From the NCBI GenBank assembly GCA_016210495.1, contig JACQUC010000167.1, positions 1-12,277 on the forward strand: a DNA stretch of 12,277 nucleotides, in the 5' to 3' direction. The notes under the pieces are model-generated. The model had not been told where the DNA came from. It worked only from the letters and a program-made list of their open reading frames with translations, and searched no databases. A program made the translations under genes and the position numbers. Position 1 is the stretch's first letter, and every line of letters begins with the position of its first letter. The stretch comes from Chloroflexota bacterium (lineage in GTDB: Bacteria; Chloroflexota; FW602-bin22; JACPRP01). Positions 1,997 to 11,975 of the stretch are shown here, one piece after another.

Positions 1997-2314
1997 ATGC
2001 CGATAGCCACCATCGCCGGAGTTGAGATTGAGGTCGACGAGGAAGGCTTCATTCTCGAGCCTGACAAATGGACCCCAGAGATCGGTGAAGAGCTAGCCAA
2101 GGAGGTAGGCTCCTCGCCGATGGACGAGGAGCGGTGGAAGGTGGTCCACGCGCTTAGGAGCTACTATCAAGAGTATGGGATGGTGCCTCCACTGCGCCAG
2201 ATCACCAAAGTCACCGGTGTCGACATGAAGCGCCTTTATGAGCTCTTCCCATACGGTCCGGGCAAAGGGCCTGCCAAGATCGGTGGCCTCACCAAACCCG
2301 CTGGATGTGTGTGA
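1997..2314 (+). CDS. dsrC: DsrC/TusE-family sulfur-carrier protein lacking the second Cys
   Basis: The 105-aa protein is a clear DsrC/TusE/DsvC family member. It has an N-terminal VDEEGFI (13-19) with W25 in a DKWTPE context, a central W47..LRSYYQEYG..PPLRQITK helix region (47-71), the LYELFPYGPGKG segment (80-91), and the family C-terminus GLTKPAGCV with penultimate C104. In true DsrC, C104 is the redox or persulfide-carrying CysA, and a second Cys (CysB) sits 11 residues upstream. Here that position is A93, read from the codon GCC, in KGPAKIGG where the Desulfovibrio protein, as I recall it, has KGACKMAG. No other Cys exists in the protein. Established work on the family (DsrC trisulfide as DsrMK substrate) needs both cysteines, while TusE-type members keep only CysA. 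I keep the symbol because of the family and the dsr neighbourhood, but function may be TusE-like sulfur transfer. The start is set by a strong SD 6 nt upstream. It appears to be monocistronic, with a 433-bp gap after it. Confidence 0.88.
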   Translation: MPIATIAGVEIEVDEEGFILEPDKWTPEIGEELAKEVGSSPMDEERWKVVHALRSYYQEYGMVPPLRQITKVTGVDMKRLYELFPYGPGKGPAKIGGLTKPAGCV

Positions 2315-2486
2315 CGAGTTGGAGCGGAATGGGGTCTTTCCAGTTGGATGGAGGCCCTTGCCGTTTCACCTTTTGACCTCTTTAATCATGGTCACGTAAA
2401 GGCTCCCCCGGCATTTGGTATGTATGTGAGCGTAGGAAGGAGTTGGCAGTCTATTTTGCGCTCGAAATGCGGCGGCTCCTCATCGT

Positions 2487-2517
2487 CTAGATCAGATTAA
2501 GGGAGTGAATCAGTGGC
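2487..2517. repeat. Direct repeat copy 1 of the rhodanese translation-start segment
   Basis: Positions 2487-2517 match 2722-2752 over 31 bp with four mismatches, including 19 identical bases (2492-2510 and 2727-2745). The downstream copy contains the Shine-Dalgarno AAGGGAG and the ATG of the rhodanese gene. The upstream copy carries the same SD with a GTG (2513) instead, opening a 31-codon frame that stops inside the palindromic element. The two copies bracket that element closely. They look like a duplication made with its insertion or by recombination around it. Confidence 0.8.
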
Positions 2518-2524
2518 GAACTTG

Positions 2525-2712
2525 GTAGGGGCCGTTCGCGAACCGCCCCATAGGCATCAAGCTAAGGCGAATGCTGATTTCAGAGCCATCGGCCGGGGAC
2601 GTCGTTAACGTAGGGGCGAACGCATTTCGCCCATACGTTAAGACCGTACGTCTACCGGCCTTACGGCTGCTTAGCTTAATGCGCATGGGGCCGTTCGCGA
2701 ACCGGCCCCTAC
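2525..2712. mobile_element. Nested palindromic (MITE/REP-like) element
   Basis: Outer arms 2525-2567 and 2669-2712 are imperfect inverted repeats of about 43 bp. Each contains the perfect 10-bp palindrome GTTCGCGAAC (2534-2543; 2693-2702). Inside, 2591-2602 pairs with 2648-2660. At the centre, 2605-2620 pairs with 2626-2641 (16 bp, one mismatch) around a 5-nt loop. The central stem begins with the same GTAGGGGC-type end as the outer arm, as if one small palindrome lay inside another. No transposase frame is present, so it would be non-autonomous. The rest of the 433-bp gap (2315-2747) has no supported gene. Between 2315 and 2486 I see only a weak possible hairpin near 2332-2357 and no convincing promoter. 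Confidence 0.75.
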
Positions 2713-2721
2713 CAGCCCTGT

Positions 2722-2752
2722 CCAGGTCAGATTAAGGGAGTGAATGAATGGC
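2722..2752 (+). repeat. Direct repeat copy 2, containing rhodanese RBS and start
   Basis: This is the partner of 2487-2517. It contains AAGGGAG (2734-2740) placed 7 nt before the ATG at 2748, so this copy is the working translation-initiation region of the rhodanese gene. Confidence 0.8.
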
Positions 2753-3578
2753 CGAGGTCAAGTTTCGTAATCCTCACCTTCTTGTGGAAACTGAATGGCT
2801 GAGCCTGCACCTCTATGATCCTGATGTGCGCGTTGTGGATTTGCGTCTTCCCAGGGAATACGACAAAGGTCATATCCCCAATTCCGTAAACCTACCTGTA
2901 GATCGCCTTAACACCCCCGACAACCCGCGGCTGGTCCTGCCACAGGAACAGATGGAGACTCTAATGGAGGAATTGGGCATAGGAAATGACACGCTCGTCG
3001 TGGCCGTGGACGAAATGGGCGGCGCCACAGCATCCCGCCTCCTCTGGACCCTGGAGCTTTATGGTCACGCGAGAGCCTGCCTCCTCAATGGCGGTCATCT
3101 TAGGTGGTCCAAAACGGTGCGAGAGCTCAGTGATACCTCCCTCGGCATACCCCCGGCGAGCTTCGCGGCTGCCTTTGACCCTTCCCGCTTGGCCACCAAG
3201 GCCCAAATCCTGGAGAAACTAGGCCAGCCAGGGATCGTCATCGTCGATGCTCGTAATGAACTTGAATACGGCGGGGCAGTTGGAGAAGCTGCCAGATTCG
3301 GACGCATCCCAGGAGCAGTGAATGTAAACTGGGAAGAACATCTCACCCTGGACGCAATCCCGGTGTTTATGTCGGCGGGGGAGCTACAATCACTTTATGA
3401 AACCGCCGGGGTCACGAAGGACAGGGAGGTTATTGCCTACTGTGAGAGAGGTCGGAGGGCCAGTCATACCTACCTGGTCCTGCGCCTCCTCGGCTACGAG
3501 AGGGTCAGAAACTACTTCGGCTCCTGGCTGGAATGGGGCAACGACCCCCAAACTCCTATCGAGGGCGAACAGAAATGA
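2748..3578 (+). CDS. Two-domain rhodanese / thiosulfate sulfurtransferase
   Basis: The 276-aa product has the size and layout of SseA/TST-type sulfurtransferases, which move sulfane sulfur from thiosulfate or mercaptopyruvate to a thiol acceptor. The N-terminal rhodanese domain (about 10-125) has the VVDLR..REYDKGHIPNSVNL signature, and its active-site position has Asp in VAVDEMGG (85-92) in place of Cys, so it is the usual inactive domain. The C-terminal domain (about 145-270) has the IVDARNELEYGG signature and the catalytic loop C232-ERGRR. It ends with the family-typical GSWLEWGND (258-266). No signal peptide is seen, so it acts in the cytoplasm. It begins 7 nt after AAGGGAG and overlaps dsrM by ATGA, which places it in the dsrMK operon. 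There it may load sulfur onto, or unload it from, the DsrC-like protein or another carrier. That role is inferred from position. Loop composition (CERGRR rather than the CG[ST]GVT type of mercaptopyruvate enzymes) favours a thiosulfate-type substrate. Confidence 0.92.
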   Translation: MAEVKFRNPHLLVETEWLSLHLYDPDVRVVDLRLPREYDKGHIPNSVNLPVDRLNTPDNPRLVLPQEQMETLMEELGIGNDTLVVAVDEMGGATASRLLWTLELYGHARACLLNGGHLRWSKTVRELSDTSLGIPPASFAAAFDPSRLATKAQILEKLGQPGIVIVDARNELEYGGAVGEAARFGRIPGAVNVNWEEHLTLDAIPVFMSAGELQSLYETAGVTKDREVIAYCERGRRASHTYLVLRLLGYERVRNYFGSWLEWGNDPQTPIEGEQK

Positions 3579-4618
3579 AGGTATTGTACGCACTCCTGGC
3601 GGTGATCATCCTGGCCCTCGTCCCCATTGTGGGGGTAGGGGAGCTTGGGTTGCGTTACCTTTTCGGGGTCATCATTCCGTACGCGGCTTTCGCCATCTTC
3701 GTCGTCGGACTTGCCTATCGCATCGTGAGATGGGCGCGGACGCCGGTCCCCTTCAACATACCCACAACCGCCGGACAGCAAAAATCACTCCCCTGGATCA
3801 AGGCCAGCAACGTCGAGAGCCCCAACAGCACCCTAGGCGTGATCGCCCGCATGGCACTGGAAATACTCTTCTTCCGCTCTCTGTTGCGGCAGGTAAAGGG
3901 CGAGCTGAGAGGGGGCGAGCTAGTCTATGAGGGCAGGCCGTATCTTTGGGTGGGTGGGCTGCTGTTTCACTGGGCGATGTTGTTTATCGTCGTCAGACAC
4001 CTGTTAGTCTTCCTTAGAACTCCGCCGGATTGGGTAACCAGCGCTTATATCGTCGATGCCTTTCTCCGCAGGGTGATCCCGACAGCGCTCCAGATCAGCA
4101 CCGTCATCGTTCTGGTGGCCGTGGCCTACCTCTTTCTGAGGAGGGTCGTCTCGCCGCAGCTACGCTACATCTCGCTGCCTTCCGATTACTTCGCGGTTTT
4201 GTTGTTCGTCGCCATTTTTGTTACCGGGGCTCTGATGCAACAGGTTTTCGTGGTGCCCTTCACGCCGGTCAGGTCGCTCCTGGCGGGGCTCATTACTCTT
4301 AGCCCCCGTGTCCCTGAGATCCATCCCTTCTTCTTTGTCCATTTCTTCCTTTTCAACGTCCTGCTGGCCTACTTTCCCTTTAGCAAGCTGATGCACGCTC
4401 CCGGGGTCTTCTTCAGTCCCACCAGAAACATGCGAAATGATAGTCGCGCGCGGCGCTACATCAACCCGTGGAACTATCCTGTCAAAGTTGCCACCTATGA
4501 AGATTACGAAAACAGATTCAGGAAGGAACTCAAGGTTGCCGGTCTGCCTCTGGAGTCTGAAGGAGGAGAAGCGATGAAAACGCCCGTGAAAATATCGCTA
4601 CGAGGGGAGGGGGGATGA
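3575..4618 (+). CDS. dsrM: DsrM, membrane cytochrome b subunit of the DsrMK complex
   Basis: The 347-aa protein is a NarI-like di-heme cytochrome b that exchanges electrons between menaquinol and the DsrK subunit. Hydrophobic segments are at about 3-23, 29-50, 125-147, 166-190, 204-228 and 250-269. Candidate heme-b histidines are H132 and H142 in the third segment, H250 and H256 in the last, and H274 just after it. The HPFFFVHFFLFNVLLAYFPF segment followed by SKLMHAPG is typical of the family. The soluble C-terminal tail (RNMRNDSRARRYINPWN onward) lies next to the start of dsrK, as usual for DsrM. The frame is open from an ATG at 3533. I chose 3575 because it gives the ATGA overlap with the rhodanese stop, a GAGGG 9 nt upstream, and a sensible membrane N-terminus. 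Its own stop overlaps the dsrK ATG by 4 bp. Confidence 0.9.
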   Translation: MKVLYALLAVIILALVPIVGVGELGLRYLFGVIIPYAAFAIFVVGLAYRIVRWARTPVPFNIPTTAGQQKSLPWIKASNVESPNSTLGVIARMALEILFFRSLLRQVKGELRGGELVYEGRPYLWVGGLLFHWAMLFIVVRHLLVFLRTPPDWVTSAYIVDAFLRRVIPTALQISTVIVLVAVAYLFLRRVVSPQLRYISLPSDYFAVLLFVAIFVTGALMQQVFVVPFTPVRSLLAGLITLSPRVPEIHPFFFVHFFLFNVLLAYFPFSKLMHAPGVFFSPTRNMRNDSRARRYINPWNYPVKVATYEDYENRFRKELKVAGLPLESEGGEAMKTPVKISLRGEGG

Positions 4619-6282
4619 ATACGTCAGCCAAAATACCACCACAAATTAATCAGAAGCCCGAGGAACTATTAGATACCATCGATTACACTCCTCCCAAAAA
4701 GGACTGGCTGGATGCAAAGGTTGAGTTTAGGAAGGGTACTTACTGCTACGGCGCCACACCTCAGCTCCTAGAAGAGCTAGGGCTCCCGAACCCCAGGCAA
4801 TGGCAGCCTTATGAGGAGGACTGGAAGCTGCCGGAGAACTGGAAGGAGACAATTCTGGCGGGAATGAAGGAGCGCTTGACACGGTACCGCTCCTTCAAGA
4901 CCTTTATGGATACTTGCGTACGATGTGGCGCCTGCGCAGACAAATGCCACTTTTACCTGGGCTCCGGAGACCCCAAGAACATGCCGGTCTTACGGGCAGA
5001 GCTGATGAGATCGGTTTATCGAAAACACTTCACCCTCGCGGGAAAGCTGCTGGGAAGGCTCGTCGGCGCTAGAGAGCTCACCGAAGATGTATTGAAAGAG
5101 TGGTACTACTACTACCATCAATGCACCGAATGCCGCCGTTGCTCACTTTTCTGCCCCTTCGGGATTGATACCGCGGAAATAACGCTGATGGCTAGGGAGT
5201 TGCTCGCCTCAGTTGGTTGCAGCTCAAAATGGATTTTGGAATCGGCACGCAACAGCTATCGCGCCGGTTCCCATATTGGCATTCCTCCCCATGCCATGGC
5301 AAATATTATGGAGACAATCAAAGACGACATAGAGGCGGTAACTGGCAAGAGGGTGGAGGTGCCTATCAACAAGAAAGGCGCTGAGGTGCTCTTTATCACC
5401 CCATCCGCCGACTTCTTTGCCATGCCCGGCTGGTACACCTTCATGGGCTATGCCATGCTTTTCCACGAGATCGGACTTGACTGGACCATCAGCTCCTTTG
5501 CCGCCGAGGGCGGCAATATGGGCTTTTTCCATTCGATGGATATGGCCAAGAAGATATGCGGCAAGTGGTATACCGAGGCTAAGCGCCTGGGGGTGAAATG
5601 GATCATCGGAGGGGAATGCGGCCATCAGTGGCGGCTCGTCCACCAGTATCTAGACACCCTTACCGGCCCCGCCGATTTCCTGGAGGAGCCGGTATCCCCC
5701 GTGACCGGCACCAAGTTCGAGAATGCCAGGTCCGCCAAGATGGTCCACATCTGCGAGTTTACGGCTGACCTCATCCAGAATAAGAAGATAAAGTTGGACC
5801 CAAGCCGAAATGATAAGTGGAAATTAACCTTCCACGACTCCTGTAACGTGGCCAGAGGGATGGGTATGTTTGAGGAGCCACGGTACATCATCAAAAACAC
5901 GTGCAACTATTTCTATGAAATGCCGAGGAACACCATTAGGGAGCAGACCCTGTGCTGCGGGAGCGGGTCCGGCCTGAACCCCGATGAGAATATGGAAGTA
6001 AGGCTGAGGGGAGGATTGCCTAGAGCTAACGCGGTAAAGCAAGTCCACAAGGAACACGGGGTGAATCTGCTAACCGCTATTTGCGCTATTGACAGAGCGG
6101 CTTTTCCAACCCTTCTCGGATACTGGGTTCCCGGGGTGGAGGTATCCGGCCTCCACGAGCTGGTGGGGAATGCACTGGTAATGGAGGGTGAGAAAGAGAG
6201 GACCACCGACCTCCGTGGTGAACCGCTACACGATGCTGGTGAACCACTGCGAGACGGTGAACAGGAAGTCGTTCACCCGTAG
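4615..6282 (+). CDS. dsrK: DsrK, iron-sulfur heterodisulfide-reductase-like subunit
   Basis: The 555-aa product is the HdrD-like catalytic subunit of DsrMK, thought to reduce (or oxidise) the DsrC disulfide/trisulfide at the cytoplasmic face. Two [4Fe-4S] motifs are present: C101-VRC-GAC-ADKC111 and C170-TEC-RRC-SLFC180 followed by P. The C-terminal half carries CCG-type signatures for the special cubane cluster: GGEC335GHQWR, FHDSC410NVARG and LCC448GSGSG. Translation is coupled to dsrM by ATGA, with a purine-rich GAGGGGAGG just before the start. The last 25-30 residues are hydrophilic and contain a short imperfect repeat (GEPLHDA/GEPLRDG). The TAG stop (6280-6282) falls in the first bases of the left arm of a palindromic element, so the tail may have been altered by that insertion. 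No DsrJOP genes accompany it here, matching the two-subunit DsrMK form. Confidence 0.93.
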   Translation: MNTSAKIPPQINQKPEELLDTIDYTPPKKDWLDAKVEFRKGTYCYGATPQLLEELGLPNPRQWQPYEEDWKLPENWKETILAGMKERLTRYRSFKTFMDTCVRCGACADKCHFYLGSGDPKNMPVLRAELMRSVYRKHFTLAGKLLGRLVGARELTEDVLKEWYYYYHQCTECRRCSLFCPFGIDTAEITLMARELLASVGCSSKWILESARNSYRAGSHIGIPPHAMANIMETIKDDIEAVTGKRVEVPINKKGAEVLFITPSADFFAMPGWYTFMGYAMLFHEIGLDWTISSFAAEGGNMGFFHSMDMAKKICGKWYTEAKRLGVKWIIGGECGHQWRLVHQYLDTLTGPADFLEEPVSPVTGTKFENARSAKMVHICEFTADLIQNKKIKLDPSRNDKWKLTFHDSCNVARGMGMFEEPRYIIKNTCNYFYEMPRNTIREQTLCCGSGSGLNPDENMEVRLRGGLPRANAVKQVHKEHGVNLLTAICAIDRAAFPTLLGYWVPGVEVSGLHELVGNALVMEGEKERTTDLRGEPLHDAGEPLRDGEQEVVHP

Positions 6283-6449: not shown

Positions 6450-7634
6450 GTGGCTGATGAGACTAACGTGCTTGATGAATTGGAAAAAGGTCCGTGGCCG
6501 AGCTTCGTCACGCAGATCAAGGAGGCAGGGAGGAAGAGTCCCATCGCCAGGGATCTGCTGAGACAACTTGAGCAATCCTACAGGGATAAGAAGCTGTATT
6601 GGCGACACGGCGGCGTGGTCGGCGTGTGGGGATACGGTGGGGGTATGATCGGGCGATACTCGGCCAGGCCGGATCTTTTTCCGGGCGTGGCCGAATTTCA
6701 CACGGTTAGGCTAAACAACCCTAGCGGCTGGTTCTACAGCACGAAGGCTCTGCGCCAGGTGTGCGATATCTGGGAGAAATACGGCAGCGGTCTCGTCTAC
6801 GCCCACGGCATGACCGGTGACCTGATGCTTCTAGGAACCACAACCAACAATTTACAGCCCTGTTTTGACGAGCTGAGCGGCGAAGCCGACTTCGACCTGG
6901 GTGGCTCAGGACCGGGCTTCAGGACGGTAAGCTGCTGTGTGGGACCGGCGCGTTGCGAATTCGCCTGTTACGATACCCTGGATGTTACCTACGACCTGAC
7001 CATGACGTTTCAGAGCGAGCTGCACCGCCCTTCCCTGCCCCACAAGTTCAAGGTCAAATGCTCCGGTTGCCCGAATGACTGCGTTGGGGCCATCCTCCGC
7101 TCCGACATGCCGATTATCGGGACGTGGCGGGACACGATCCAGATCGACCAGGCGGCGGTGAGGGAGTACATCGACGGCGGCCTGGACATCGTGTCCGACG
7201 TGATCAGTAAGTGTCCCACAAAGTGCCTTTGGCTCGCCGAAAAGCAGTTGGGCATCGAGGATCGCGAGTGCAATCGCTGTATGCACTGTATCAACGTCAT
7301 GCCCAAGGCGCTCCGTCCGGGCAAAGAGCGCGGGGCCACTATCCTCATCGGTGGCAAGACACTGCTGGTCGAGGGGGCTCTGATCTCCTCGGTGCTAATT
7401 CCCTTCATCAAGCTGACACCCCCCTACCAGGAAATCAAAGATCTGATGACCAAGATCTGGGATTTCTGGGGAGACAATGCACGTGGCCGCGAGCGGGTAG
7501 GCGAGTTCATCGAGCGAATAGGGCTGGGCAACTTCTTGGAAGGGATAGGGATTGAGCCCAACCCCTACGTGATCGCCCACCCCAGAGAAAATCCTTTCAT
7601 CAAATTTGAAGAGTACTATAGGGAAGGAGATTAA
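6450..7634 (+). CDS. dsrA: DsrA, dissimilatory sulfite reductase alpha subunit
   Basis: The 394-aa product is the alpha chain of the alpha2beta2 siroheme enzyme that reduces sulfite by six electrons, or runs in reverse in sulfur oxidisers. The siroheme-[4Fe-4S] motif is complete: C163-x5-C169 in CCVGPARC and C207-x3-C211 in CSGCPNDC. An inserted ferredoxin domain has C255/C259 (CPTKC) and C274-NRC-MHC280. The basic and aromatic residues expected around substrate appear in GGVVGVWGYGGGMIGRYSA (54-72), including R69. A GTG start at 6450 is supported by AAGGAGG at 6434-6440, 9 nt upstream. dsrB follows after 2 nt, so the two are co-translated. Length is at the short end for DsrA, which is often slightly over 400 aa. 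I cannot decide from the sequence alone between the reductive and oxidative type. Confidence 0.96.
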   Translation: MADETNVLDELEKGPWPSFVTQIKEAGRKSPIARDLLRQLEQSYRDKKLYWRHGGVVGVWGYGGGMIGRYSARPDLFPGVAEFHTVRLNNPSGWFYSTKALRQVCDIWEKYGSGLVYAHGMTGDLMLLGTTTNNLQPCFDELSGEADFDLGGSGPGFRTVSCCVGPARCEFACYDTLDVTYDLTMTFQSELHRPSLPHKFKVKCSGCPNDCVGAILRSDMPIIGTWRDTIQIDQAAVREYIDGGLDIVSDVISKCPTKCLWLAEKQLGIEDRECNRCMHCINVMPKALRPGKERGATILIGGKTLLVEGALISSVLIPFIKLTPPYQEIKDLMTKIWDFWGDNARGRERVGEFIERIGLGNFLEGIGIEPNPYVIAHPRENPFIKFEEYYREGD

Positions 7635-7636
7635 GC

Positions 7637-8722
7637 GTGGAGGCTTCACCCAAAGCGAGGAAGCTCGATATCGGACCACCGGATTACCGACAGTTTCTAC
7701 CGCCTGTCGTCAAGGAAAACTATGGCCAGTGGAAATACCATGAAATGCTAAGGCATGGGGTGCTGGTCCACGTGTCGGAAACGGGAACGGCGCTCTACAC
7801 GGTGCGCGCCGGCTCACCCCGGCTAGTGAATATCGATTTCATTCGCCGCATCTGCGACCTTGCCGACCGATACGCCGAGGGCTATCTGCGATTTACCAGC
7901 CGCAACAACGTCGAGTTTATGCTGCCCAACAAGGATAATATCGATCCTCTGATCGCCGAGCTGGAGGGGATGGGCATTCCGGTGGGGGGAACCGGCAGGG
8001 TAGTACACAACATGCTGCACTCACAGGGCTGGATGCACTGCCACACCCCGGCCAGCGCGGATGCGTCCGGGATCACCAAGGCTGTGATGGACGAACTCTA
8101 CGAGTACTTCAAGGCCGGAGATCTGCCCCACCGAGTGAAAATCGCCTTCGCCTGCTGTACGGCAAGCTGCGGGGGAATCTACTGGTCGGACATCGCCATT
8201 CTGGCGCTGCATCGACGGCCTCCTAAGGTGAACCACGAGTACGTGTGGCGTGTTTGCGAGATTCCAACCACATTAGCCAGTTGCCCCGTGGCGGCCATAA
8301 AGCCGACGTATGTGAACGGCAAATCCTCGGTGACGATAGACGAAGACAAATGTGTGTACTGTGGCAACTGCTACTCGATCTGCTCCGCCTGCGAAATCAT
8401 CGACCCCGTCAATGACGTCCTCTCCATCTGGGCTGGCGGCAAGCTTGCGAACGCTCGCAGCGAGCCAATGCTGGGCAAACTGGTAGTGCCAGCGCTCCCC
8501 TCGAACCCGCCGCGCTGGCCCGAGGTCGTGGCGGCGGTGAAAAAGATCGTCGAGGTCTATGCGCAGAACGCGAGGAAGTACGAGCGGGTAGGGGAATGGA
8601 TCAATAGAATTGGCTGGCCCAGGTTCTTTGAGCTCACCGGCTTCGAGTTCACGAAGTATCACATCGACGATCACAAGCACGCTGGGCAGACCTACAAGAA
8701 GTCGGTCCAGCTCAAGTTCTAA
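7637..8722 (+). CDS. dsrB: DsrB, dissimilatory sulfite reductase beta subunit
   Basis: The 361-aa product is the beta chain paired with DsrA. Siroheme-cluster ligands match the DsrB pattern: C135 in SQGWMHCHTP and C173, C174, C178 in ACCTASCGG. A ferredoxin domain follows with C216 (ASCPVAAIKP) and C239-VYC-GNC245, plus nearby C249 and C252. DsrB carries the catalytically active siroheme in characterised enzymes. The typical SDIAILALHRRPPKV stretch (184-198) and the ITKAVMDELYEYF helix (146-158) are present. The start is GTG at 7637, 7 nt after GGAAGGAG (7622-7629). It is separated from dsrA by 2 nt and from the next gene by 15 nt. Reductive and oxidative forms share all these residues, so the direction is not settled here. 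Confidence 0.96.
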   Translation: MEASPKARKLDIGPPDYRQFLPPVVKENYGQWKYHEMLRHGVLVHVSETGTALYTVRAGSPRLVNIDFIRRICDLADRYAEGYLRFTSRNNVEFMLPNKDNIDPLIAELEGMGIPVGGTGRVVHNMLHSQGWMHCHTPASADASGITKAVMDELYEYFKAGDLPHRVKIAFACCTASCGGIYWSDIAILALHRRPPKVNHEYVWRVCEIPTTLASCPVAAIKPTYVNGKSSVTIDEDKCVYCGNCYSICSACEIIDPVNDVLSIWAGGKLANARSEPMLGKLVVPALPSNPPRWPEVVAAVKKIVEVYAQNARKYERVGEWINRIGWPRFFELTGFEFTKYHIDDHKHAGQTYKKSVQLKF

Positions 8723-8737
8723 CAGCAAGGAGACAAG

Positions 8738-10411
8738 ATGTCGGTAGTTCTTGAACGAAGACAGAGGGCGCTGGGAGCGAACGCCAGACTCGGCGCGAGA
8801 ACGGCCGTCGAGCTGACAAGGCCGTATTGGGCGCAGAAAAGGCCTTCTTGCAACAACGCCTGCCCCAACGCCAACGATATGCGAGCGTGCCTCACGACCA
8901 TTGCCCAACACAAATCTCTGGGGCTGACTCCCGAAGCGGCGATGGAAAAGGCATGGGATACGCTGACAGGTACCAACCCATTCCCTAGCGTCTGCGGTCG
9001 GGTGTGCCCCGCCATGTGCAGGGCGGAATGCAACCGCAAGGAGAGGGACGAGGCGGTTAATATCCCGGCCATTGAGCGGGCAATTGGCGATTACGGGATC
9101 GAGAACGGCTTGCGCCACAAGAGGTTAACGGAGGAATGCTACACGGAAAAGGTGGCCGTCATTGGCTCCGGACCTTCCGGCCTTTCCTGCGCGTTTCAGA
9201 TGGCCAGGAGGGGTTACCTGACGACGGTGTTCGAGGCCTCTGCCAAGGCCGGTGGGATGCTGCGCTACGGGGTGCCGGACTATCGATTGCCACCGGGGCC
9301 TCTGGACGCCGAGATCGAGGCCATTCTGAACCTCGGCGTGGAGATGAGATACAATACCAGGGTTGGCGTCGAGGTCTCCCTGGAGGAACTGCAAAGGGAG
9401 TATCGGGCGGTCTACGTGGCCATCGGTGCGGGTGTGGGCACGAGATTGAACATCGCCGGCGAAGGAATGCCTAATGTGCTCACCGGGGCAGCTTTTCTCA
9501 ACGGCGTGAACTCTGGCCAGAAGATCGACGTCGGCCACAGGGTAGTCGTTATCGGGGGCGGAAACAGCGCCATCGACGCCGCCAGGGTGGCACGCCGGTT
9601 GAGAGCCGACGTCACCGTTTACTATCGTCGCACGAGACAGGAGATGCCGGCCATTGCGGAGGGTATCGCCGAAGCGGAGGAGGAAGGCATCCACTTTGAG
9701 CACCTCACTGCCCCGATCGAGATCTTGCACAACGGGGCCAGGGCGACCGGGGTGAGGCTCATTCGGACGAAATTGGTCGAGGCGGACGCCAGCGGCCGGG
9801 CCAGACCCGAACCGATCCGCGGCTCCGAGCACGAGGCGCAGGCCGACACTGTGATCTCCGCTATCGGTCAGCAGCCTGACTTCGCGGGGCTGGAGCAGCT
9901 AAGGAATAAGGAAGGCTGGATTTCGGTCGATCGGAAGAGCCAGAGTGCGCTGCCCGGAGTGTTCGCCGGTGGTGATGTCACGAACAGGCTCGGGCTGGTC
10001 GTCGAAGCCATCGCGCTGGGCAGGCGTGCCGCCCAATCGATCGATGATTACTTGCGGCAGCTGGAGACGAAGGAAGCCAAACCGGCTCCGGTAATCCGGC
10101 CTGCCAAAATGAAGCTGGGGTATTACCAGGCGCTGCCGCAAAACACGGAGCCGATGCTTTCCGCTGGCGAGCGGGCAAATAACTTCGACGTTGTCACCCA
10201 GCCGCTGGAGAGTCCCCGGGTGGTCGACGAAGCGAAGAGATGCATGAGCTGTGGCCTGTGCTTTGGCTGCGATATGTGCTTTCGGTCCTGCCCGTATCGG
10301 GCCATTGCCCGGGCGCCGAAGGGGGGCATCAAGTACCAGTTCGGTAGCTATTGCGTAGGCTGTGGGATCTGCGCCGAAGCGTGCCCCTGTGGCTTTGTTG
10401 ATACGATGTGA
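8738..10411 (+). CDS. dsrL: DsrL-type iron-sulfur flavoprotein NAD(P)H oxidoreductase
   Basis: The 557-aa protein has the plan of the glutamate-synthase small-subunit family (GltD-like) and of DsrL, which passes electrons between NAD(P)H and DsrAB. An N-terminal Fe-S region holds C38/C42 (CNNACPNAND) and C86, C90, C94, C98 (CGRVC..MCRAEC). The FAD-binding loop is VAVIGSGPSGLS (139-150), and the NAD(P)-binding loop VVVIGGGNSAIDAA (269-282) is followed by YYRRTRQEMPA (295-305). A second FAD contact GVFAGGDV sits at 407-414. The C-terminus (500-557) has two ferredoxin motifs, C502-xx-C505-xx-C508..C511-xx-C514-xxx-C518P and C539-xx-C542-xx-C545..C549..C551. The two arginines after the second nucleotide loop would favour NADPH, by analogy with relatives. 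Allochromatium DsrL, as I recall it, is about 100 residues longer. Position directly after dsrB with AAGGAG (8727-8732) supports DsrL over a general GltD. Its presence in a locus is known for oxidisers and also for some sulfite reducers. Confidence 0.85.
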   Translation: MSVVLERRQRALGANARLGARTAVELTRPYWAQKRPSCNNACPNANDMRACLTTIAQHKSLGLTPEAAMEKAWDTLTGTNPFPSVCGRVCPAMCRAECNRKERDEAVNIPAIERAIGDYGIENGLRHKRLTEECYTEKVAVIGSGPSGLSCAFQMARRGYLTTVFEASAKAGGMLRYGVPDYRLPPGPLDAEIEAILNLGVEMRYNTRVGVEVSLEELQREYRAVYVAIGAGVGTRLNIAGEGMPNVLTGAAFLNGVNSGQKIDVGHRVVVIGGGNSAIDAARVARRLRADVTVYYRRTRQEMPAIAEGIAEAEEEGIHFEHLTAPIEILHNGARATGVRLIRTKLVEADASGRARPEPIRGSEHEAQADTVISAIGQQPDFAGLEQLRNKEGWISVDRKSQSALPGVFAGGDVTNRLGLVVEAIALGRRAAQSIDDYLRQLETKEAKPAPVIRPAKMKLGYYQALPQNTEPMLSAGERANNFDVVTQPLESPRVVDEAKRCMSCGLCFGCDMCFRSCPYRAIARAPKGGIKYQFGSYCVGCGICAEACPCGFVDTM

Positions 10412-10556: not shown

Positions 10557-11975
10557 ATGGTAAACCAAATGGCTCTTTCCGTAACGATTGCGGCCCCTCA
10601 GGGGCGCTCTGGGAAAACAACCGTCAGCCTGGGGTTGTGCGCTGCGCTGAGGCGGTGTGGCCTGGTGGTGCAGCCGTTCAAGAAGGGGCCGGATTATATC
10701 GACCCCTCGTGGCTTACGGCAACGGGCAGAAGTTGTCGCAATCTGGATGCCGTGTTGATGTCGGAGGGGACGCTACTGGCTTCCTTTCAACATGCCTGCG
10801 AGGGGGCAAGCTTTGCCCTTATCGAGGGAGCCATGGGACTGTACGACGGCTTTGATTCCGGCGGATGGGGAAGCACCTCCCACATAGCAAAACTTGTGGG
10901 CAGCCCGATCATTCTGGTGGTCAACGCGGCGCGGATGACCCGCAGCGTGGCGGCGATGGTAAGCGGCTACCAGCATTTTGAGCCCGACAGCAACATCAGA
11001 GGCGTGGTTCTAAATAATGTAGCGAGCAGCCAGCACAAGCAAAAGCTGGTGAGAGCAATTGAGCAATATTGCCAGATTCCCGTCGTCGGCTGCATCCCCC
11101 GCGACCCTACCCTGAGCATCACTGAACGCCACCTGGGCCTCACCCCCTTCCGTGAAATTGGGAAGGAAGAGAGCATTGACCGTATTGCGCATCAATTTGA
11201 ATCTTACCTTGACACGGATACCGTTTTAGCCATTGCTAGCGAGGCCCAAACCAGCCACACGCCTGATATTGCACCTATGGAAGGGAAGCCGGTTGTGGGC
11301 GGGGTACCGTCCGTACTCGGCCGACGTGCCAGGGTGGGGGTGATGCTTGACCGTGCATTCACCTTTTACTACCCGGAAAACCTTGAGGCCCTGACCCAGG
11401 CTGGCGCCGAACTGGTGCTCATTGATTCCATGCACCACCAGACCTTGCCTGATATTGATGGGCTTTATATTGGTGGCGGCTTCCCCGAGGTGTTTGCCGA
11501 AGAGCTAGAAGCCAATAGCCGACTCCGACAGGATATTCGTCGGGCTATCGAAGACGATCTGCCAGTGTATGCCGAGTGCGCCGGTCTAATGTACCTGTGC
11601 CGGGCCATCCAGTGGCACGACAGATGGTATGAGATGGTCGGCGCAATCCCGGCCGAGGTTGAAATGCGCCCGAAAATACAAGGGCACGGCTATACACGTG
11701 TTGAAGTTGCCCGGCAGAATCCATTCTTCTCCGTCGGCCAAAGCTTCTGGGGCCATGAGTTCCATCATTCCACGATATCGCCCTCAGGCACCCTTAACTT
11801 TGCCTATCGGATGCTGCGGGGTAGGGGAATTGATGGCAAGGCCGATGGCATCGTGTACAAGAACGTGCTGGCTTGCTACACCCACCTGCACGCCCTAGGC
11901 GTGCCTCAGTGGGCGGAAGCGTTCGTCGCTCTTGCAGCGAAGAAACAGCATTCTTTAGTTACATTGCCAACCTAG
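10557..11975 (+). CDS. dsrN: DsrN, CobB/CbiA-type siroheme amidase
   Basis: The 472-aa product belongs to the cobyrinic/hydrogenobyrinic acid a,c-diamide synthase family: an ATP-dependent DTBS-like domain followed by a class I glutamine amidotransferase (GATase-3) domain. Visible are the P-loop APQGRSGKTT (13-22), KKGPDYIDPSW (42-52), the GAMGLYDGFD loop (91-100), the GLYIGGGFPEVFAEEL segment (302-317), the glutaminase nucleophile C341 in YAECAGLMYL, and the terminal catalytic His in YTHLHALG (H443 or H445). In dsr loci this family member, DsrN, is thought to amidate the siroheme of DsrAB using glutamine. A cobalamin-pathway CbiA is the alternative, but no other cobalamin gene is near. The start is uncertain: ATG 10557 has AAGGG only 1 nt upstream, while the in-frame ATG at 10569 (residue 5) is 13 nt from it and gives a more usual N-terminus. 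The gene lies 145 nt after dsrL across a palindromic element. Confidence 0.88.
   Translation: MVNQMALSVTIAAPQGRSGKTTVSLGLCAALRRCGLVVQPFKKGPDYIDPSWLTATGRSCRNLDAVLMSEGTLLASFQHACEGASFALIEGAMGLYDGFDSGGWGSTSHIAKLVGSPIILVVNAARMTRSVAAMVSGYQHFEPDSNIRGVVLNNVASSQHKQKLVRAIEQYCQIPVVGCIPRDPTLSITERHLGLTPFREIGKEESIDRIAHQFESYLDTDTVLAIASEAQTSHTPDIAPMEGKPVVGGVPSVLGRRARVGVMLDRAFTFYYPENLEALTQAGAELVLIDSMHHQTLPDIDGLYIGGGFPEVFAEELEANSRLRQDIRRAIEDDLPVYAECAGLMYLCRAIQWHDRWYEMVGAIPAEVEMRPKIQGHGYTRVEVARQNPFFSVGQSFWGHEFHHSTISPSGTLNFAYRMLRGRGIDGKADGIVYKNVLACYTHLHALGVPQWAEAFVALAAKKQHSLVTLPT

Follow-up and report, generated by a model that had tools for sequence, protein, structure and literature searches.

In the accepted view, the trisulfide of DsrC links sulfite reduction to energy conservation. 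In this scheme its formation (reductive direction), or the release of sulfite (oxidative direction), needs a second cysteine, CysB, whose assigned role is to resolve the adduct carried by the penultimate cysteine, CysA. The locus analysed here, a stretch of 12,277 nucleotides from a Chloroflexota bacterium (contig JACQUC010000167.1; hereafter the window), raises the question of how a dsr operon might work with a DsrC that has no CysB. The explanation we favour, with a probability of about one half, is that the protein is the operon's own DsrC, that it has lost the resolving CysB, and that it would still serve DsrAB and DsrMK as a one-cysteine persulfide carrier.

Translation of the window dsrC gave a chain with one cysteine, C104 (TGT, 2306-2308), at the penultimate position, and with alanine (A93; GCC, 2273-2275) at the CysB position 11 residues before it. 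Both features had been claimed in an earlier note made from the sequence alone, and a gap-free alignment of residues 4-105 with D. vulgaris DsrC (2v4j_C) agreed with them, placing A93 on C93 and C104 on C104. Within the arm, the two proteins also differ at positions 92 (P92 for Ala92), 96 (G96 for Ala96), 99 (T99 for Pro99) and 102 (A102 for Thr102). An equivalent of CysB was sought elsewhere in the chain and there is none; with one cysteine per chain, neither a disulfide nor a trisulfide between CysA and CysB can form within it, as the same note had reasoned. The protein scored well above the cut-offs of Pfam DsrC PF04358 (101.8 vs 24.9 bits) and TIGR03342 (88.2 vs 53.5 bits). Its score with the TusE equivalog NF008562 was low (54.1 vs a cut-off of 191 bits), a weak argument against TusE because P0121, an undoubted one-Cys protein of Chloroflexota, also reached just 62.7 bits. 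The AlphaFold2 model (mean pLDDT 93; mean 64 for residues 101-105) predicts a DsrC fold including the C-terminal arm, and all eight structure matches of this model with E <= 0.001 were DsrC-family chains. The RspA group is defined by the absence of the penultimate CysA, which is present here as C104.

Table 1. Genes of the dsr locus in the window, with the evidence for each assignment.
Feature	Coordinates	Strand	Evidence and remarks
dsrC variant	1997..2314	+	105 aa; CysA = C104, CysB position = A93; Pfam, TIGR, alignment, model
Two-domain rhodanese (thiosulfate/3-mercaptopyruvate sulfurtransferase type)	2748..3578	+	PF00581, 126 bits vs 22.2
dsrM	3575..4618	+	NF038037, 410 bits vs cut-off 300
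dsrK	4615..6282	+	NF045796, 700 bits vs 400; CCG-domain motif ends CAID, not CxxC
dsrA	6450..7634	+	TIGR02064, 545 bits vs 392.85; aligned to 3mm5_A
dsrB	7637..8722	+	TIGR02066, 473 bits vs 341.5
dsrL-type flavoprotein, type 2 (YRR motif, residue 296)	8738..10411	+	PRK12771, 564 bits vs 516; pyridine nucleotide and Fer4 domains
dsrN-type a,c-diamide synthase (CobB family)	10557..11975	+	TIGR00379, 465 bits vs 261

The dsrMKABLN locus and the adjacent rhodanese, both recognised in the earlier note, held up on scanning (Table 1). The genes dsrM, dsrK, dsrA and dsrB were above their NCBIfam cut-offs and the rhodanese above that of Pfam; the names dsrL and dsrN rest on family, motif and position, as the matches listed included no NCBIfam entry called DsrL or DsrN. 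The start of dsrM (ATG 3575) was chosen by homology, the ORF scanned being a longer one from 3533. The rhodanese, which fell under the cut-off of NF008557 (119.8 vs 250 bits), resembles thiosulfate sulfurtransferases (1uar_A, E 6e-46) and bears a cysteine in the loop CERGRRA of its second domain.

When a database of 5.8 billion proteins was searched with the window DsrC, 236 matches were obtained, of which 120 were listed. A single one of these 120 relatives was more than 60% identical to the query: P0002 (85%), from the Chloroflexi MAG NC_groundwater_682 (L001, genome G001; hereafter the sister genome), a draft on which all figures given for G001 depend. Among the 120 listed relatives, the window protein included, the CysB position is occupied by Cys in 117 and by Ala in two, namely the window protein and its sister; in P0072 there is no C-terminal Cys from which to count. 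The codon for Ala93 is GCC in both genomes, and residues 81-105 are identical, with six of their codons differing silently. The dN/dS ratio between the two genomes (Nei-Gojobori style count) was 0.113 for dsrC and 0.053-0.226 for the neighbouring genes; the one-cysteine DsrC is thus under purifying selection in two genomes. The order dsrC-rhodanese-dsrM-dsrK, where the sister contig ends, is that of the window, and a second contig of the sister genome begins inside dsrK and continues with dsrA-dsrB-dsrL-dsrN. A sequencing error at 2273-2275, or decay of the gene, would fit with just two such sequences having been found. It is, however, contradicted by the same codon in two independent assemblies, by the unchanged C-terminal arm, by the shared gene order and by the low dN/dS, and is very improbable; A93 looks like a real variant.

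The surroundings of the two operons differ in several respects. Upstream of dsrC (233-1782), the window holds a gene for a PaaK-like CoA ligase (ATG 233), which scored below its curated cut-offs, and a 70-aa ORF that weakly matched the SRE stationary-phase-response family; according to the ORF list, neither adjoins dsrC in the sister genome. The spacer between dsrC and the rhodanese gene measures 433 bases in the window and 169 in the sister. In the window (2485-2752) it contains a palindromic repeat element with inverted arms at 2528-2566 and 2670-2708. Direct repeats of 33 nt (88%) flank this element and hold a copy of the start region of the rhodanese gene; the arrangement resembles a MITE-type insertion accompanied by a long target duplication.

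The relation between CysB and DsrAB was surveyed in an even sample of 400 Chloroflexota genomes out of a larger group; a DsrC-family match at E <= 1e-4 was obtained in 29 of them. With the window DsrA as query, six of the 29 were DsrA-positive (G001, G005, G009, G020, G055 and G179) and 23 were negative (22 at E <= 1e-20 and G034 at E <= 0.001); a class-wide DsrA search detected four positive genomes out of 29, none of them new. There were 34 DsrC-family matches, of which 33 were examined, the 34th (G283:C21) being an N-terminal fragment; a C-terminal CysA from which to count is missing in three of the 33, namely a second protein in each of G009, G020 and G170. A two-Cys DsrC was present in five of the six DsrA-positive genomes, the exception being the sister genome, and in none of the 23 DsrA-negative ones, where the CysB position held Ala (19 genomes) or Arg (four). 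The association was significant (Fisher's exact test, p = 5e-5) with the exception included, with the relatedness of genomes uncorrected and with complete and incomplete genomes taken together. The view that a one-Cys DsrC beside dsrMKAB is unexpected was supported, and the pair formed by the window and its sister is the exception, in which DsrAB is present and CysB absent. CysB has been described as strictly conserved in organisms with a sulfur-based energy metabolism in the available sections of the 2012 paper of Stockdreher et al. (PMC3397948), and the portions of the open-access PMC literature that were retrieved yielded no report of a CysB-less DsrC in an organism bearing DsrAB.

An alternative would be that a second, two-Cys DsrC encoded elsewhere in the genome does the respiratory work, leaving the window copy as an accessory sulfur carrier. 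The sister MAG may be incomplete, and two of the six DsrA-positive genomes (G009 and G020) do have extra family members, one of those in G020 with Arg at the CysB position. In both, however, CysB is present in the copy of the dsr cluster and missing from the extra members, which lie on other contigs; the one-Cys copy is the operon copy in both the window and its sister. Moreover, the sister draft genome yielded no further PF04358 match over the cut-off, the next scoring 15.4 vs 24.9 bits. A second DsrC is accordingly unlikely, if the least so of the alternatives considered here.

Two of these genomes also encode a different kind of DsrC-related protein. At L017:7623-9332 (G020) and L018:8281-10062 (G009), proteins of 569-594 aa have 4Fe-4S and CCG domains fused to a DsrC domain at the C-terminus (63 and 47 bits, respectively, vs 24.9) whose arm is without the DsrC cysteines. 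The G020 fusion was closest to the HmcF/TmcB/DsrK models, under their cut-offs.

Whether the protein is a true DsrC that lost CysB or an imported TusE was examined in trees of 71-76 sequences and 82-105 columns, with rows thinned at 82% identity so that 35 two-Cys relatives and six of the 120 one-Cys relatives were kept. Neither of the two DsrK-DsrC fusions was included, and three rows were dropped from the tree without the arm and five from that without the CysB column. With all columns, the window/G001 pair lay inside a 15-row clade with two-Cys DsrC proteins (support 99/100), and it did so again when the CysB column was removed (100/97). Removal of the whole arm gave a one-Cys group that excluded the pair (99/96), which then lay at the boundary of the two-Cys group (51/91). 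These placements come from few columns, with the pair on a long branch, with long branches meeting in the all-column and CysB-less trees, and with unsettled bootstraps in the arm-less and CysB-less ones. Since an AU test of the pair grouped with one-Cys proteins gave p = 0.214, secondary loss of CysB within true DsrC is favoured, not shown, over the import of a TusE.

TusE takes part in sulfur transfer from TusBCD/DsrEFH to MnmA, and a relay of this type could have been recruited into the operon to send sulfur to biosynthesis (e.g. tRNA thiolation) and not to serve DsrAB. The Ala at the CysB position, as in most of the DsrA-negative genomes, the DsrEFH/TusA-like genes of the sister genome and the boundary position left open by the AU test all speak for such a relay. 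Against it stand the placement of the pair with two-Cys DsrC, the prevalence of two-Cys DsrC among the listed relatives, and the fact that the gene heads a dsr operon. We consider this relay improbable; the suggestion of a TusE-like paralogue in the earlier note is likewise less supported, given these trees (with their AU value) and the lack of another DsrC over the cut-off in the sister draft.

How a one-Cys DsrC might be loaded and unloaded can be considered in the light of A. vinosum DsrC, in which sulfur and sulfite bind to CysA alone, and DsrEFH passes sulfur to CysA in a step where CysB is dispensable (available sections of PMC3397948). Because CysA alone binds and CysB resolves, a natural CysB-less DsrC could load but would need another thiol, or DsrK, to unload. 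In the window operon, the siroheme of DsrAB would pass zero-valent sulfur to C104 on the flexible arm while sulfite is reduced; alternatively, this sulfur may be supplied by the neighbouring rhodanese and a DsrEFH/TusA relay. The C104 persulfide would then be resolved by a thiol outside the chain (the rhodanese cysteine or a small thiol), or the DsrK cluster might act on it directly. The rhodanese is the leading candidate for the thiol that would replace CysB, the others being small thiols and a C104-C104' bridge. A related and more tentative proposal, which we regard as somewhat doubtful, is that DsrAB-DsrMK runs without a DsrC trisulfide, sulfite reduction being coupled with the membrane complex through a one-Cys persulfide and the rhodanese thiol acting in trans.

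The earlier note had envisaged intermolecular or small-thiol disulfides, a reading close to ours. In its intermolecular form, two DsrC chains would be joined by a disulfide or trisulfide, C104-S(n)-C104', and DsrMK would reduce this bridge like the normal intrachain bond. This would keep the accepted trisulfide chemistry and agree with an intact arm and C104 and with a DsrK of the usual family, but no sequence feature pointing to dimerisation was seen, and we think it quite unlikely.

The preferred explanation, an operon DsrC acting as a one-cysteine persulfide carrier, is supported by several lines of evidence: the conservation of A93 and of residues 81-105, the gene order, the lack of another PF04358 match over the cut-off in the sister genome and the trees; the loading of A. 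vinosum CysA without CysB, together with a DsrEFH-like trio and TusA in the sister genome; and the rhodanese next to dsrC, the DsrL type 2 motif, the DsrA identities, and in the sister genome the lack of a Sat match and of an AprA match over the cut-off and an SsuA-type gene. It is weakened by the need for CysB in the accepted scheme, by the AU test, with which a position of the pair at the boundary with TusE-like proteins is compatible, and by pathway absences and DsrE-family matches that are not special to this lineage. Further points against it are a DsrK in which no adaptation to a one-Cys partner is visible, DsrEFH-like genes that could indicate oxidation, and a sister MAG from which a second DsrC may be missing.

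The rhodanese gene, which the earlier note had linked to DsrC, adjoins dsrC in two of the seven dsrC-dsrAB loci compared, those of the window and the sister genome, so that CysB loss together with an adjacent rhodanese gene is seen in a single lineage. In the ORF lists and scans of the five two-Cys DsrA-positive loci, the neighbours of dsrC were dsr genes, an RsbRD-type protein (G009) and an NrfD-type protein (G020). The closest homologue of the window rhodanese in G005 lies on another contig, and none was found at E <= 1e-20 in G009, G020, G055 or G179; G009 does encode, ~4.3 kb from dsrC, a pyridine-nucleotide-disulfide oxidoreductase that carries a rhodanese domain at its C-terminus.

DsrK was also considered as a site of adaptation to a one-Cys partner. 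Its CCG motif ends in CAID, with Asp in place of the last Cys that the other DsrK-like rows of the alignment show, and this ending is common to the window, its sister and G009. A co-adaptation of DsrK was dropped as a candidate, since the DsrK of G009, 67% identical to that of the window, serves a genome whose dsr-operon DsrC has both cysteines; no adaptation of DsrK to the one-Cys DsrC is therefore visible.

As to the direction of the pathway, a YRR motif in the NAD(P)-binding domain marks the NADP(H)-linked type 2 of DsrL, according to the sections available of Loeffler et al. 2020 (PMC7596348). The motif lies at the same residue in the sister DsrL as in that of the window, which by this rule is predicted to be of type 2 and NADP(H)-linked. 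The window DsrA is 58% identical to that of A. fulgidus, 51% to 2xsj_A and 44% to an oxidative-type rDsrA, values that are suggestive only of its type, as they come from a comparison of ten sequences in which the oxidative reference was a phage-borne gene labelled rdsrA and no cellular one was included. A search for an oxidative-type DsrA reference gave two weak matches in plasmids and none in viral_contigs. In the sister genome, DsrD and Sat gave no match and AprA none over the cut-off (best 93.9 vs 641.75 bits), absences that would fit sulfite or thiosulfate, not sulfate, as substrate. They are not special to this lineage, since most of the other DsrA-positive genomes also lack these genes: among the six, Sat was found in two, AprA over its cut-off in one and DsrD in two, none of them the sister genome. 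Directly upstream of dsrC in the sister genome, and not in the window, lies a gene for an SsuA-type sulfonate-binding protein (94.9 vs a curated cut-off of 163.5 bits). The balance leans towards NADPH-driven reduction of sulfite derived from thiosulfate or sulfonates as the likely direction.

Contig C75 of the sister genome carries the DsrE-, DsrF- and DsrH-like trio and TusA-like genes. All three members of the trio passed their Pfam cut-offs, the NCBIfam cut-off being reached by DsrH alone (51.1 vs 49.2 bits), and the DsrE-like protein aligned with A. vinosum DsrE (2hy5_A, E 9e-9). Matches to the DsrE family occurred in seven of the eight genomes searched, two-Cys ones included. A second type of DsrEFH is typically found with reductive DsrAB and has been read as a capacity for sulfur oxidation in the text available of PMC13293266; the sister genes could thus mean oxidation, not reduction. 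At L080:7575-11137, on this same contig, the DsrE/F/H-like and TusA genes directly precede those for a nitrate-reductase-gamma-like membrane subunit and a CCG-domain iron-sulfur protein, possibly a second membrane complex for sulfane sulfur. The Chloroflexota of one survey had DsrD but lacked dsrL (sections available of PMC10591310), whereas here the window operon has dsrL and the sister MAG gave no match for DsrD.

Compared with known systems, the window protein differs from the dissimilatory DsrC of D. vulgaris (2v4j_C), D. norvegicum (2xsj_C) and A. fulgidus (1sau) in its Ala at the CysB position and in the rhodanese gene next to its own. The A. vinosum variant Cys100Ser resembles it in keeping CysA without CysB, binds sulfur and accepts it from DsrEFH; it is, however, an engineered laboratory variant, unlike the natural protein described here, and support of the whole pathway is not among the results reported in the available sections (PMC3397948). 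Phage TusE-like DsrC proteins, 112 of 141 of which have the second cysteine motif alone, are alike in this respect, but come from phage genes outside a cellular dsr operon (portions available of PMC8190135). Two cysteines have been taken as the mark of respiratory DsrC in phage genes (PMC8190135), in a Chloroflexi single cell (PMC4959651) and in Acidobacteriota (PMC8528874), as far as the available text of these papers goes. That a DsrC variant under selection breaks this rule is real; the mechanism described above is a proposal. With a dsr operon whose own CysB-less DsrC is maintained by purifying selection, the need for CysB can be tested on a natural set of proteins; such an operon also warns that two-Cys rules can misfile a respiratory DsrC as TusE. 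Were the DsrAB-DsrMK pathway to run free of the trisulfide, an intrachain CysB would be an optimisation and not a requirement.

The TusE of E. coli and the single-Cys TusE/DsrC proteins of Chloroflexota likewise have CysA alone, and Ala occupies the CysB position in all 120 of the Anaerolineales-type one-Cys proteins listed (of 3596 matches), as it does in the window. The Chloroflexota proteins are the sole kind in the 23 DsrA-negative genomes and, unlike the window protein, form a separate group in the trees; one example adjoins a type III SQR. A further Chloroflexota group of the DsrC family (L008, L049, L050, L051 and L052) has Arg at the CysB position, and four of its five members end in CysA-Leu-Asp. 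The Arg-type gene of G020 lies between those for a molybdopterin xanthine-dehydrogenase-type protein and a class-V aminotransferase.
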